From positions 1 through 45,995 of the forward strand of contig ONYP01000050.1 in assembly GCA_900322135.1 (NCBI GenBank): DNA of 45,995 nucleotides, written 5' to 3'. The notes below the pieces were generated by a model, which was not told the DNA's origin, ran no database searches, and saw only the letters and a program-made list of their open reading frames with translations. A program made the translations under genes and the position numbers. Position 1 is the stretch's first letter, and each line of letters begins with the position of its first letter. Source of the DNA: an uncultured Prevotellaceae bacterium. Lineage in GTDB: Bacteria > Bacteroidota > Bacteroidia > Bacteroidales > Muribaculaceae. Below, piece by piece: positions 41,156 through 45,552 of the stretch.

Positions 41156-41479
41156 TTATTGGTTTTGTAACTGTTTGATTTTCTCTTGCAGGTTGCGGAT
41201 GGTCTCCTGCTGCATTGCAATCACATCGACGAGGTTGTCGAGGCGTTTCGCCTGGGCGGTCTCTGCGTCGCCCTTGAGCATGCTGCCCTCATCACGGAGC
41301 AACCAGTTGCAATCTATCTCTGGGAATTGTTGCGCCACGGCCACCAGGGTGGCGACATTCACGCGCTGGCCGTTGAGCTGTCGCCAGAGGTTCGCCTGGG
41401 TGGAGCCGACCTTCTTGGCGAATGCCGTTTGTGAGAGTCCGCTGTACTCGATGACAGCGAGTAATTTTTCGGTAATCAT
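41156..41479 (-). CDS. XRE-type helix-turn-helix repressor
   Basis: A 107-residue DNA-binding protein with an N-terminal five-helix HTH (GLSQTAFAKKVGSTQANLWRQLNG, about residues 14-37, then VAVAQQFPEIDCNWLL). The C-terminus is a short coiled coil (VIAMQQETIRNLQEKIKQLQNQ) suited to dimerisation. There is no peptidase domain, so it is not a LexA/CI-type self-cleaving repressor, and induction must work another way. It is divergent from the phage early genes across a region with two matched palindromes, its probable operators, and is followed at once by an exported protein gene. Confidence 0.85.
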   Translation of the reverse strand: MITEKLLAVIEYSGLSQTAFAKKVGSTQANLWRQLNGQRVNVATLVAVAQQFPEIDCNWLLRDEGSMLKGDAETAQAKRLDNLVDVIAMQQETIRNLQEKIKQLQNQ

Positions 41480-41542: not shown

Positions 41543-41588
41543 TAATACGGAAAGGTATTGCTATTATACAAATTCGTATTATCTTTGC
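41543..41588. promoter_or_regulatory. Early promoter with two operator-like palindromes
   Basis: The rightward promoter has TTG at 41559-41561, a 19-bp spacer and -7 TATCTTTG at 41581-41588. Site 1 is AATAC-N6-GTATT (41545-41560) just upstream of and touching the -33. Site 2 is ATAC-N6-GTAT (41567-41580) just before the -7. Their centres are 21 bp apart, two helical turns, so a repressor would sit on one DNA face. Site 1 also overlaps a plausible leftward -7-like sequence for the repressor gene. Confidence 0.6.
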
Positions 41589-41666: not shown

Positions 41667-41987
41667 ATGGAAGAGAAAAAATTGAACGAGGCACAGGTCG
41701 CCGAGCAGACCACCTCACAGGAGAACATCAACAAGGTTGAGAGCGAGTTGGATGTCATCATCAACGAGAACACCACACTCAAGTCTGAGAACGAGCGACT
41801 GCAAAAGCAGTACGAGAGCGAGAAGAAGACTTGCCTCCGCTACTACCGCCAGATGAACATGCTGAAGACGGCCATCAACAAACTCATCGAAGACGGCAAG
41901 ATTGCCGAGGACGATGTGACCAAGGCCATCCTCGTCGGCCAGTCGCTGACGAGCATCGAAGACCTGCTGTTCACCCTGGCGGACTAA
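41667..41987 (+). CDS. Small coiled-coil protein, first early gene of the phage region
   Basis: A 106-residue, highly charged protein with no signal peptide or membrane segment. Residues about 20-75 form a coiled coil (VESELDVIINENTTLKSENERLQ), followed by a helical tail (TAINKLIEDGKIAEDDVTKAI). No family is recognised. It is the first gene after the early promoter and lies directly before the structured non-coding segment, so it could bind that RNA, other early proteins or the repressor; none of this is shown by the sequence. Confidence 0.65.
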   Translation: MEEKKLNEAQVAEQTTSQENINKVESELDVIINENTTLKSENERLQKQYESEKKTCLRYYRQMNMLKTAINKLIEDGKIAEDDVTKAILVGQSLTSIEDLLFTLAD

Positions 41988-41999
41988 CCACTAAGCACA

Positions 42000-42497
42000 T
42001 TCCGAAGTTTGGTCAACTTCACGGCCTCCTGAGATAGGGGCCACCGCAGTAGCACAAGAGCAGTGCCGCCGAAAGGCAAGATGGAGAGTGCGAGTCCTCC
42101 CTGCGGAACACAGCAGAGTTCCTTGACATGATGGCTGCAAGATAGTAGAAGGCTACAGACTTGCGACAAATCCAGCCGCCCGAAGACGCTGGTGGTGTCC
42201 AGTCACCATAACCTGGAAGTGAGCCGCGCACTACAAACGCGTTGAAAAAGTAGAAAACGACAATGGTATCTGCCATACAACATATACGATTGAGATTTGC
42301 TCATAATGTCCCGCAAGGGGCACCCCGCTAAGCCGATGGGGGTACGAATCATGCCCGTAGGACATGAGGGGCCAAAGGAACTGGCGGTCGGGACGGTAGC
42401 TCGGATAATAACATGGATAGAGCGCTCGGAGAACGAGAGGTTGGTGGTTCGAATCCATCCTGTCCCACTATTGTGTGTTTTTATTGTAAACTGTGCT
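42000..42497 (+). ncRNA. Candidate large structured RNA in the phage early region
   Basis: Nearly 500 bp without a credible gene but dense in hairpins. These include 42004-42009/42015-42020; 42023-42042 (GGCC-bulge-CCT/AGG-GGCC); a cloverleaf-like unit closed by CCGCAG/CTGCGG (42044-42049/42101-42106) with arms 42052-42055/42063-42066, a GAAA-capped GCC/GGC at 42068-42077 and 42083-42086/42097-42100; 42137-42141/42160-42164 enclosing 42145-42148/42153-42156; 42193-42197/42204-42208; ATGTCC/GGACAT (42306-42311/42360-42365) enclosing GGGCA/TGCCC; and 42371-42374/42382-42385. It ends with a tRNA-like fold and then a terminator. Large ornate phage RNAs such as GOLLD and ROOL are the closest concept; I cannot match it to either. 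Confidence 0.5.
42390..42467 (+). tRNA. tRNA-like element with defective anticodon arm
   Basis: The acceptor stem GGGACGG/CTGTCCC (42390-42396/42460-42466) has seven pairs with one wobble. TA follows, then a D-arm GCTC/GAGC (42399-42402/42420-42423) with an oversized 17-nt loop. The T-arm GGTGG-TTCGAAT-CCATC (42443-42459) is canonical. The anticodon arm is only CTCG-GAGAA-CGAG (42425-42437), with no 7-nt loop and no U33. An alternative pairing gives a 7-nt loop but still no U33. CCA is not encoded. It is therefore more likely a tRNA mimic or relic than a decoding tRNA. Confidence 0.45.
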
Positions 42498-42530
42498 CCC
42501 GCTCATCCGTGAGGACCGGCGGGTTCTTTT
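42498..42530 (+). terminator. Rho-independent terminator after the structured RNA
   Basis: CCCGC (42498-42502) pairs with GCGGG (42519-42523) around an inner TCA/TGA pairing, followed by TTCTTTT. It closes the interval that holds the candidate RNA and separates it from the next small genes. Confidence 0.6.
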
Positions 42531-42555
42531 GATAACAACTAATTCATTATTATAT

Positions 42556-42756
42556 ATGGAGACAATGACAACAAACACTACGGACACAATCCGTAACATG
42601 AAGGTCGGCGATGAGCTGACCTTTCCCATCGCCAAGGCCGACACAATCCGCACGATCGTGTGGACACGGCTGCTGCCTGAGCGTTCTTCGGGAATGCGCT
42701 GGACTACGATCCTGGACAAGGAACTTGCCACCATCACATTGAAGCGCATAGAATGA
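42556..42756 (+). CDS. Small phage protein of unknown function
   Basis: A 66-residue protein from the ATG at 42556. The N-terminus is Thr-rich (METMTTNTTDTIRNM), followed by KVGDELTFPIAKADTIRTIV and a C-terminal strand ATITLKRIE. It may be a small beta-rich DNA- or protein-binding fold. The stop overlaps the start of the next gene (ATGA), so translation is coupled. Not recognised. Confidence 0.55.
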   Translation: METMTTNTTDTIRNMKVGDELTFPIAKADTIRTIVWTRLLPERSSGMRWTTILDKELATITLKRIE

Positions 42757-42977
42757 CACGCCAGGACATCGAGAACCGTTTGCTTGAGAACATCCTCGCA
42801 GTGACTTCGGGGATGATCATCGGCAAGCGCACCGCCGAAAAGTTAGTCGGCGGTCCCAAGAAACTGGAACGGCTGCTGACCGAAGGCAAAATCGGCTGCA
42901 CCGGCAAAGGAAAAGGCCAGAGCGGCAAATGGCGCTTTGACCTATCCTCGGTTCTGCAACACTGCAGGCCTGCATAA
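42753..42977 (+). CDS. Small putative DNA-binding phage protein
   Basis: A 74-residue basic protein. The pattern GKRTAEKLVGGPKKLERLLTEGKI, then a Gly/Lys-rich turn and WRFDLSSVLQHC, resembles the winged helix of excisionase-like or helix-turn-helix_17 proteins, in which a short helix pair is followed by a wing and the residues naming the column. It overlaps the preceding gene by four bases. The assignment is tentative. Confidence 0.5.
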   Translation: MTRQDIENRLLENILAVTSGMIIGKRTAEKLVGGPKKLERLLTEGKIGCTGKGKGQSGKWRFDLSSVLQHCRPA

Positions 42978-43378: not shown

Positions 43379-44056
43379 ATGGAAAAGAAAGAATTGAAGA
43401 GCGTATTCGCTACGCTGAACGCCATCAATGTGAATGAGCACATTGAGAAGAAGAAAACGGGGGAGAAGAACCCCGACGGAACCGAAAAGACTCTTTCGTA
43501 CCTCTCATGGGTATGGGCTTGGGGTCAGGTCAAGCAGTTGTATCCTGATGCCAGCTATGAGGTTAAGCACTGGGATGGCAAACCCTACCTTTGCGATGAA
43601 CTCATTGGCTTCATGGTCGAGACATCTGTCACCATCCAGGGTGAGACGATGACGATGTGGTTGCCTGTCATGGACAACAAGAACAAAGCGATGAAGGCTG
43701 CGCCCTATACCTACAAAACCAAATACGGAGAGAAGGAGGTAGCACCTGCCACTATGTTCGACATCAACACCGCAATCATGCGTTGCCTGGTCAAGAACCT
43801 CGCAATGTTTGGTCTCGGCCTCTACATCTATGCGGGTGAGGATTTGCCCGAAGAGGACGCCAAGCAAGCCAAGGAGGCTGCAACCGCAGCTGCTGCCGCT
43901 GACCTTCCCAAAGCCATTGAGGAGGCCAAAACCTGCAAGAGCCGCGATGCCATCAACGCTGTATGGGGAAAGTGGACAGCCAAGCACCCCGAGTTCGCCA
44001 CCCAGGGACACGAGTTCTACAATGCCATCGTGGCAGTCGGTCAATCAATCAAGTAA
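43379..44056 (+). CDS. DUF1071/Sak3-type single-strand annealing protein
   Basis: A 225-residue phage recombinase of the Rad52-like annealing superfamily, DUF1071 branch. Family hallmarks are NVNEHIEKKKTG, LSYLSWVWAWGQVKQLYPDA, MWLPVMDNKNKAMK, and the conserved block ATMFDINTAIMRCLVKNLAM followed by FGLGLYIYAGEDLPE. The Ala-rich linker and C-terminal helical segment (about 165-225) are less conserved. It should anneal complementary single strands made by the exonuclease encoded 12 bp downstream. A promoter-like site lies about 45 bp upstream. Confidence 0.85.
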   Translation: MEKKELKSVFATLNAINVNEHIEKKKTGEKNPDGTEKTLSYLSWVWAWGQVKQLYPDASYEVKHWDGKPYLCDELIGFMVETSVTIQGETMTMWLPVMDNKNKAMKAAPYTYKTKYGEKEVAPATMFDINTAIMRCLVKNLAMFGLGLYIYAGEDLPEEDAKQAKEAATAAAAADLPKAIEEAKTCKSRDAINAVWGKWTAKHPEFATQGHEFYNAIVAVGQSIK

Positions 44057-44068
44057 TTTTCAGCGATC

Positions 44069-45100
44069 ATGATAAAATTTGAGGATTTAAAGCAGTCGGC
44101 GGTAGTGTTCGATGAGGCCACTCATACCTACCGCCGTGGCGATGAGCGACTGAGTGGTATCACCTCGCTCATCCACGATGTGTTGCAGTTGGGCGTTTAC
44201 CCTGACGCCAGTGACTATGTGCTGAAGGTGCAGATCCCGAAAGCCGGGTATTACGGCACCTGCGTCCACAAGGCCATCCAGATGTACAACTCCATTGGTA
44301 TCGAAATGACCAAGTTCCCCGAGAAGGAGCACCCCACCGCAGGCACATTGCCCGCACAGGATGTCACCGATGACCTCGCCGCCTACAAGAGCCGCAAGCC
44401 ATACAAGGTGAAGACACTCGCCAGCGAGTTCACCGTCAGCATGGGCATGTTCGCCTCGCAGATTGATGAGATTTGGGTTGACGATGAAGACGGCATCTAC
44501 CTGGTGGACTTCAAAACGAACAACCTCGACTATTACCCCGGCAATGCCGCTGGTCTGAAGGAATACCTATCATGGCAGCTCAGTTGCTATGCTGTGATGT
44601 TCGAGGCGCAGACTGGTTACAAGGTCAAGGGCCTTGTAGGTTTTTGGCTGCGCAAGGGTGACAGTGACCGTTGGGACATCGTCCGCCAGCCTGATGAGAA
44701 GGTGCTGCAACTCCTTGAGACGGAAATCCTGCCCAAGCCGCATGGAGGCTTCATATACATCAATGATGCGATGCAGGTATCAACACCCCATGTGGATGAA
44801 TTGAAGCCAGCAGAGGCCAAATCTGAGGCTCTGGTGGTACCTCCTGAGATTACCACTGCTATCGCCAACCTGGTCAAGGCCGAGAAGGCCGCCAAGCTGA
44901 TGAAGGACAAGCTGCGTGAGCTCATGGAGGCCAACGGCGTCACCAAGTGGGAGTGCGATGCCTTCACTGCTTCAATCGGCAAGGAGTCAACAGCGACCAC
45001 ATTCGACTCAACGGCTTTGAAGAAAGCCGACCCTGAGACCTACAATAAGTATCTCAAGACAACCACCCGCAAGGGAAGTTTCACCATTAAAGCGAAATAA
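44069..45100 (+). CDS. Phage PD-(D/E)xK exonuclease
   Basis: A 343-residue nuclease of the RecB/YqaJ-like PD-(D/E)xK fold. The His/Glu-containing helix is YYGTCVHKAIQMYNSIG. The catalytic core is SQIDEIWVDDEDGIYLVDFKTNN, with the Asp and the D-x-K pair, and the motif QLSCYAVMFEAQTG follows. The C-terminal 100 residues form a helical region with LVKAEKAAKLMKDKLRELM and a beta segment ending FTIKAK, as in phage nucleases linked to annealing proteins. With the DUF1071 protein and SSB it forms a two-component recombination cassette. It starts 12 bp after the annealing protein. Confidence 0.85.
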   Translation: MIKFEDLKQSAVVFDEATHTYRRGDERLSGITSLIHDVLQLGVYPDASDYVLKVQIPKAGYYGTCVHKAIQMYNSIGIEMTKFPEKEHPTAGTLPAQDVTDDLAAYKSRKPYKVKTLASEFTVSMGMFASQIDEIWVDDEDGIYLVDFKTNNLDYYPGNAAGLKEYLSWQLSCYAVMFEAQTGYKVKGLVGFWLRKGDSDRWDIVRQPDEKVLQLLETEILPKPHGGFIYINDAMQVSTPHVDELKPAEAKSEALVVPPEITTAIANLVKAEKAAKLMKDKLRELMEANGVTKWECDAFTASIGKESTATTFDSTALKKADPETYNKYLKTTTRKGSFTIKAK

Positions 45101-45102
45101 TC

Positions 45103-45552
45103 ATGTCAGTCAATAAAGTTTACCTTCTCGGGAATGTTGGCCGCGACCCCGAAGTGAGGACATCACAAAGCGGCAAGTTCGCCACCTTCACCCTCGCCAC
45201 TACCGACAGGGCATACACCACGAAGAGCGGCGTTCAGGTTCCTGAGCGCACCGAGTGGCACAACATCATTGTAGGCTCTAACGGGCTCGCCGAGGTCTGC
45301 GAAAAGTATGTCAGGAAGGGCACCAAGCTCTTCATAGAGGGCAAGATCAGGACACGCAAGTACACTGGCCGCGACAATGCCGAGCACTATGTCACCGAGA
45401 TACTCGTTGACAACTTCGAGTTGCTTGGCGGCAAGCCTGAGCAAGCCAGTGCGCCTGCAGCTTCTCCCAATCCGCCGTTCTACAACCAGCAGCGCAGTCA
45501 AGCACCCGGTGCTCCCTCGTTTGACGGGAGCGGCAACCCTGCACCTTACTGA
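45103..45552 (+). CDS. ssb: Single-stranded DNA-binding protein
   Basis: A 149-residue SSB with the OB-fold start SVNKVYLLGNVGRDPEVRTS, then FATFTLATTDRAYTTKSG, EWHNIIVGSNGLAEVCEKYV and KLFIEGKIRTRKYTGRDN. The tail is Pro/Ser/Gln-rich and ends GNPAPY, without the acidic DxxPF-type tip that recruits host proteins. It may therefore not bind the usual host partners, as is seen in some phage SSBs. It lies 2 bp after the exonuclease and 1 bp before the next gene. Confidence 0.92.
   Translation: MSVNKVYLLGNVGRDPEVRTSQSGKFATFTLATTDRAYTTKSGVQVPERTEWHNIIVGSNGLAEVCEKYVRKGTKLFIEGKIRTRKYTGRDNAEHYVTEILVDNFELLGGKPEQASAPAASPNPPFYNQQRSQAPGAPSFDGSGNPAPY

Follow-up and report, generated by a model that had tools for sequence, protein, structure and literature searches.

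What is encoded by the 568 nt (positions 41988-42555) that separate two small genes of a phage early region, a gap in which hairpins abound? In the original prediction, made from the stretch of 45,995 nt that is analyzed here as a whole (hereinafter, the window), the segment was read as a large ornate phage RNA, perhaps of a new class. The comparative analysis described below supports this interpretation and confirms in part the observations from which it was drawn: the segment is a genuine structured non-coding RNA, and there is good support for the conclusion that its approximately 500 nt represent a member of an apparently undescribed family of large phage RNAs of the GOLLD and ROOL kind. 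Two points had been overlooked, namely that the two cloverleaves of the segment are the two ends of a common plan, and that the family is present in several genera.

Genomic setting

A divergently oriented gene for an HTH regulator (41156-41479, minus strand) lies on the upstream side of the phage early region. The early operon, on the plus strand, opens with the gene for a 106-aa coiled-coil protein (41667-41987; an open reading frame with aligned relatives), for which no clear Pfam or PHROG family was found, and resumes beyond the gap with a 66-aa gene (42556-42756; phrog_21219, annotated without a function), the syntenic neighbor that served as a probe (see below), and a 74-aa gene (42753-42977; phrog_18744, annotated as unknown). 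These are followed by recombination genes (43379-45552) encoding a Sak annealing protein, a RecE-like exonuclease and a third product that was named, from its sequence, as a single-strand binding protein.

In a motif scan, the closest upstream TAnnTTTG, presumably the Bacteroidota -7 element, was located at 41580-41587 (plus strand), before the coiled-coil gene; the scan detected no other copy from there to the end of the RNA element, and none between 42530 and the start of the Sak gene. Across 21 loci of the family, the motif occurs 397-615 nt upstream of the 5' tRNA-like unit in 12 and within the element in none (0/21). The possible co-transcription of the RNA with the coiled-coil gene is thus favored by the position of the nearest promoter-like motif, whereas the gene that precedes the RNA varies among the relatives and is not the coiled-coil gene in L037 and L068.

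The contig of one family member (L097) encodes a major head protein, a head maturation protease, an exonuclease, a helicase and ParB-like genes; given these genes, the RNA family can be said to sit on phages. A Peptidase S78 search for the capsid gene was positive in one of eight genomes and negative in the genome of the window.

Structure of the RNA segment

The first of the two cloverleaves (42044-42106), already described in the original prediction as carrying a GNRA-capped arm, was recovered at the same coordinates, with its stems and a T-like arm, by stem search, by strand swaps between loci and through cross-matches to tRNAs of R1, a covariance model that contains it. In this 5' unit, the acceptor-like stem measures 6 bp, positions 8-9 are UA, a D-like stem is present, the GNRA-capped arm takes the place of an anticodon arm, and the T-like arm has a single bulged base and the loop TGCGAGT. 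The second unit, proposed as a tRNA-like 3' domain, coincides exactly with a match to the Rfam tRNA family RF00005 at 42390-42467 (39.4 bits against a cut-off of 29; E of 5.8e-5 over the window) and is also supported by stem search and strand swaps; it combines a 7-bp acceptor, a 5-bp T arm and a long D loop with a short hairpin where the anticodon arm would be. The tRNA family is the only one that scores above its gathering threshold in the window. RF00005 did not match the 5' unit at E up to 5 in a search of the segment, ARAGORN reported no tRNAs in the window, and neither an RF00023 match nor an ARAGORN call for tmRNA was obtained there.

All other elements of the RNA likewise lie on the plus strand. 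Ahead of the 5' unit are the hairpins GAAGTT/AACTTC (42004-42020), which is confined to window-type members, and GGCC-CCT/AGG-GGCC (42023-42042). Between the units follow the core motif of the family, AGCAGAGTTCCTTGACATGATGG... (42108-42147), found with the covariance model R2 (see below); the hairpin GCAAG(ATA)GTAG AAGG CTAC(AGA)CTTGC (42137-42164), identified by sequence reading, folds and alignment; the hairpin CCAGC/GCTGG, which comes after ACAAAT (42172-42192) and resembles hairpins of other sequence in divergent members; the hairpin GGTG/CACC (42194-42207); a conserved block of the AAGCCGATGGGGGTACGA type (42330-42347); and the hairpin TCATG/CATGA (42349-42367).

In window-type members, the 3' unit is followed by a rho-independent terminator-like hairpin with a T-run (42498-42530). 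The claim of a terminator at this position holds in so far as the hairpin folds at -15.3 kcal/mol and an unrelated hairpin with a T-run occupies the same place in L037, whereas neither scan substantiated it: a simple scan found two terminators against a mean of 1.4 in shuffles, no better than chance, and a strict search, which is insensitive, found none in the 21 loci, the window included. Exceptional folding stability did not materialize either: the minimum free energy is ordinary (z of -0.59), with 30 of 100 shuffles folding equally well. Folding energy was therefore dropped as evidence, and the case rests on comparison.

Close homologues

When 297 genomes of the bacterial family were searched at the DNA level, full copies came up in G232 (L003) and G286 (L004) and a truncated one in G164 (L005); two further full copies are present on IMG/VR contigs (3300032030_001794, loci L017/L043, and 3300021255_002825, L037). 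Another match, L018, is an unrelated GC-rich sequence and was discarded. In the four full homologues, the indels relative to the window that are not multiples of three number 13 of 15 (L003), 11 of 12 (L004), 17 of 19 (L017) and 15 of 19 (L037), with alignment ends included in these counts. Such frame-breaking indels rule out a coding explanation and bear out the earlier remark that the segment holds no plausible gene; a conserved protein-coding pattern is absent from the homologues.

The covariation on which the original prediction had been staked is present in the homologues, both in the acceptor and T stems of the units and in the core hairpins. Compensatory changes in the homologue alignment are located at 42023-42042 (in L003, L004, L037 and the truncated L005), at 42194-42207 (GGAG/CTCC in L004) and at 42349-42367 (CTATG/CATGG, CCATA/TATGG and CCACA/TGTGG). 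Positions 42075-42183, which make up 109 nt, are invariant in four loci (the window, L003, L004 and L017), whereas the coiled-coil gene drops to 54-66% identity in 50-nt bins.

The truncated locus, L005 (G164:C59, minus strand), keeps no more than the initial hairpins and a portion of the 5' unit, after which comes a small open reading frame. In G217, a genome of the same genus, a CRISPR array with 36-nt repeats (L006, about 1000-2035; G217:C9) includes one 31-nt spacer that matches the window at 42314-42344 (29 of 31 bases), overlapping the conserved AAGCCGATGGGGGTACGA-type block; this is, as expected, the kind of match that an invading element would draw.

A wider family in several genera

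Probing with the neighboring 66-aa gene brought up divergent relatives of the RNA in other genomes, other genera and phage contigs of IMG/VR. The 66-aa protein itself has matches in 11 of the 101 genomes of the genus and in 27 of 397 genomes of the bacterial family, distributed over 11 of 30 genera. When the stretch before the 66-aa gene was read in 16 loci (L065-L080; L081-L095 were covered by pattern search), the element was found immediately upstream of the gene in seven (L065-L068, L070, L073 and L076), its core was located more than 1 kb upstream in two (L077 and L079), and no element was seen in the stretch read in seven (L069, L071, L072, L074, L075, L078 and L080). Miniature tRNA-like units, with an acceptor and a T arm and without a clear anticodon arm, were noted by eye just 5' of the 66-aa gene in L074, L075, L077, L079 and L080.

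The common layout of the family comprises a cloverleaf, the motif AGAGTnCCTTGACA, a series of hairpins, a second tRNA-like unit and, usually, the 66-aa gene; the conserved core between the units spans approximately 260-465 nt across members and approximately 280 nt in the window. A scan of IMG/VR with the pattern AAAGNAGAGTNCCTTGACA returned 16 stretches, 14 of which, several of them near-copies, were judged to be members by reading; L105 and L107 are chance matches inside coding sequence. The model R2 was built on an alignment (A9) of 13 members that includes no window-type sequences: these are 13 of the 16 candidates that have a CGATGAG end, with the near-copies L101 and L097 and the long-insert member L104 omitted. 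Because they do not have this end, L077 and L106 also fall outside A9 and R2.

In the window, R2 matches positions 42108-42147 with 27.6 bits (E of 1.4e-7 in the 568-nt gap and 8e-4 genome-wide), which is near the best chance match elsewhere (26.4 bits), so that place and synteny carry the link between the window and the family. At E 0.01, 19 of the 101 genomes of the genus pass, and ten were counted as real by score or reading, a count that excludes low matches with E of 0.004-0.009 and includes G327 on score alone. Among 295 genomes of the order, three matches pass, namely the window's own, a real one in another genus of the bacterial family (L112) and L114, which, like L124 and L125, turned out on reading to be due to chance. 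Family members in other genera are L076, L077 and L112. The model R1 also matches ordinary tRNAs at its cloverleaf columns; L024-L026 are host tRNAs, as judged from the alignments, and L027 (G353) is a true member of the family. The 13-mer matches L052-L055 were rejected as chance.

Many of the loci are near-copies of each other (L068/L101/L108, L073/L109, L100/L110, L097/L111, L076/L094/L099 and L096/L098), and accordingly the locus counts given here are not counts of independent events. The elements of two divergent members and the core of L099 have no match in 50,697 GenBank phage records, and two cores have none in 72,556 plasmids; for the window and for the complete L099 element, the matches to phage records fall in tRNA parts only, among the best 20 of 21 and the best 20 of 105 records, respectively.

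tRNA-like units and the core between them

The two ends of the element were searched in 21 loci for a 7-bp acceptor with a T arm, in comparison with shuffled sequences. At the 5' end, the combination beats the maximum of 20 shuffles in all 21 loci and, at the 3' end, the maximum of six shuffles in 17 of 21, the misses being L017, L100, L103 and L104 (no 3' unit was found in L104, and those of L100 and L103 were recognized by eye only). Because such a search selects for pairing, strands were swapped between loci as a control. Among the units scoring at least 11 (21/21 at the 5' end and 18/21 at the 3' end, without L100, L103 and L104), which at each end form 16 different sets of stems, the acceptor and T stems pair with their own partners in 187 of 192 positions (5') and 191 of 192 (3'), compared to 60% and 72%, respectively, after swapping between loci.

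A canonical anticodon arm, defined by at least four of five pairs, a 7-nt loop and U33, is absent from 20 of the 21 5' units and nine of the 18 3' units, both units of the window among these; this test is permissive and lacks a control for chance, and long inserts may pass it fortuitously. Judging by their sequences, some units may be decoding tRNAs: the 3' unit of L066 is a plain tRNA-Ser, ARAGORN names the 5' unit of L104 and both units of L076/L099 as tRNAs, and the 3' unit of L077 has a good CGU arm. RF00005 matches the 5' unit in L099 and L111. At the other extreme, the compact element L122 (G146:C105) has no 5' unit and ends in a minimal mimic that consists of an acceptor and a T arm alone.

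The units are exchanged between similar cores, and like cores can bear unrelated units. The cores of L068 and L073 are 86% identical, with 5' units at 35%; those of L017 and L037 are 93% identical, with 3' units at 74%; and L004 and L037 share 3' units at 96% identity on cores at 75%.

In the core alignment (A10), 93.7% of the cells in the core hairpins are paired, eight of nine pairs show double changes, and the covariation score is 0.302 as against 0.083 or less for slid partners; the 23 distinct rows behind these values (from 31 matches, including the chance matches L105 and L107, a second match in L097 and gapped window-type rows) were fitted to R2 and so are biased towards the model. Additional core hairpins reappear with differing sequences in divergent members. 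A similar insert (AAGCCGTCACGCAAAGTGGAGAGTCCAC...) within a CCAG/CTGG hairpin in mid-core is present in L100 and L102 and missing in their close relatives; it could be a removable side domain.

Possible processing and function

The family, with its two-ended layout, its covariation, the exchange of its modules and its position in the operon, carries tRNA look-alikes at the ends of the RNA, which suggests excision by the host enzymes that trim tRNAs. The explanation that we favor, with a probability of about 45%, is that the tRNA mimics of an early-operon RNA are cut by RNase P and the 3' tRNA nucleases and that the freed core acts in trans. Transcription would start at the promoter that precedes the coiled-coil gene, within the early operon, and would presumably be early; in the transcript, one tRNA mimic would flank the conserved core on either side; cleavage by host RNase P would occur 5' of each mimic, with RNase Z or exonucleases acting 3', in the manner of tRNA maturation. 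These cuts would release the core, approximately 280 nt long in the window, and part it from the downstream mRNA, and the freed core would work in trans as a structured RNA, as is assumed for GOLLD and ROOL. In a broader formulation, which we put forward tentatively, exchangeable and mostly non-decoding tRNA mimics would punctuate the early operon, and host tRNA-maturation enzymes would both excise and end-protect a trans-acting RNA.

RNA processing of this type has precedents. In MALAT1 and MEN-beta, RNase P and RNase Z cleave at tRNA-like structures, according to the available excerpt of PMC4919922, and RNase P releases the phage C4 RNA from a larger transcript, according to that of PMC5320573; the acceptor and T-arm substrate structure of such RNase P-processed RNAs is present in the units. 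As these two arms suffice for processing, their conservation would be accounted for, as would the lack of a regular anticodon arm in most 5' mimics and half of the 3' mimics and the swapping of mimics between similar cores. The retention of the arms, the loss of decoding at most 5' ends, the exchange of units and the absence of a promoter motif of the element's own therefore fit RNase P and RNase Z sites. Several observations count against processing: the terminator of the window type would be superfluous for a processed RNA, the permissive anticodon-arm test was passed by nine of 18 3' units, L122 does without a 5' unit, and the 3' unit of L017 is no better than shuffles. The frequent occurrence of the 66-aa gene without the RNA (7 of the 16 loci read) also counts against the proposed explanation.

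Because the window's subgroup has a terminator, regulation in cis is the principal competing explanation. The RNA would then be a leader or attenuator, for example an antiterminator or a sensor, that governs read-through to the 66-aa gene and on to the recombination genes, a role compatible with its placement behind the first early gene and ahead of the remaining operon, with the terminator-like hairpin and with the lack of a TAnnTTTG motif from 42530 to the Sak gene. However, the terminator is seen only in window-type members; in the others, no obvious terminator separates the 3' unit from the 66-aa gene. The core of L077 and L079 lies more than 1 kb upstream of that gene, and two tRNA-like ends are unnecessary for such control. 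We consider this explanation unlikely, if still worthy of attention.

Given that half of the 3' units may keep an anticodon arm, explanations based on the tRNAs were also retained. The tRNAs or their mimics could be the active part, serving as decoys for tRNA-targeting defence, synthetases or EF-Tu, while the core would surround them as their scaffold or cage; the decoding-like units of L066, L076, L077 and L104 would suit such a role, as would the proposal, in the available excerpt of PMC12286853, that the tRNAs in the GOLLD linker are the content of a cage. This appears rather improbable, however, with a canonical anticodon arm missing from 20 of 21 5' units and with unrelated types of unit placed on similar cores, contrary to one fixed tRNA identity.

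Relationship to known RNA classes

As described in the available excerpt of PMC12286853, GOLLD is a large ornate RNA of phages and prophages, often near tRNA islands and sometimes with tRNAs in its linker, and ROOL, which was initially encountered in the rumen and also lies near tRNA islands, is another large ornate RNA of phages; the function of both is given there as not known and their link to tRNAs as unexplained. A phage-borne, ornate, tRNA-linked RNA of several hundred nucleotides could accordingly be a divergent GOLLD or ROOL member that forms an RNA cage, and the discovery of ROOL in rumen samples would agree with this, but the covariance models of the two classes, like the rest of Rfam, gave no convincing match in the window segment (E up to 5), in nine loci (up to 0.5) or in the L073 and L099 elements (up to 10), and we regard such membership as very doubtful. 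The family also differs from GOLLD in having units at both ends of the core, most of the 5' ones without an anticodon arm, and from ROOL, as far as can be judged from sequence, in core and layout. With tRNA-like units at both core ends in most members, the association of GOLLD and ROOL with tRNAs becomes testable as a processing model.

Weak Rfam matches, all below the gathering scores, were not adopted: G-CSF_SLDE in the window segment; tmRNA fragments and tRNA-Sec in the nine loci, tRNA-Sec falling on the 3' unit in L065 and L067; and Yfr1, mascRNA, Plastid-ycf2 and the TMV pseudoknot in the L073 and L099 elements.

Like tRNAs, the phage units possess acceptor and T arms, UA at positions 8-9 and a D-like stem; unlike tRNAs, they are part of a larger conserved element and have often lost or altered the anticodon arm. 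MALAT1, with mascRNA, resembles the family in that a long non-coding RNA carries a tRNA-like structure at its 3' end, and differs from it as an animal nuclear RNA with a single unit, the cutting of which corresponds to a step that is proposed for the phage family. The C4 antisense RNA of P1 and P7 is likewise a phage non-coding RNA cut by RNase P; it is, however, an antisense regulator of approximately 77 nt with no bracketing cloverleaves, and Rfam C4 has no match in the window. A literature search among open-licence PMC papers found no description of an RNA of this kind.

The notion that the element is a relict of decayed phage tRNA genes without a function of its own, which could be prompted by the abnormal anticodon arms and the truncated copy in G164 (L005), is hardly credible in the face of stems maintained by compensation and of 109 nt that are identical in four loci while the neighboring gene is at 54-66% in places.

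The family lacks an Rfam entry although it is present in ten of 101 genomes of the genus and in other genera, and some phage tRNA annotations may be fragments of such RNAs. If the favored explanation, that is, excision by tRNA-maturation enzymes, is true, tRNA punctuation would be employed by viruses of bacteria.

Two minor observations concern the surroundings of the element in other members. The contig of L097 carries, near the head genes, a c4-2 RNA (Rfam RF02944, 60.2 bits) at L097:13941-14023 on the plus strand. Beyond the third of the operon's small genes, extra tRNA-like units are located, on minus strands, at L068:500-571, at L070:407-478 and 69-141, and at L073:687-759.
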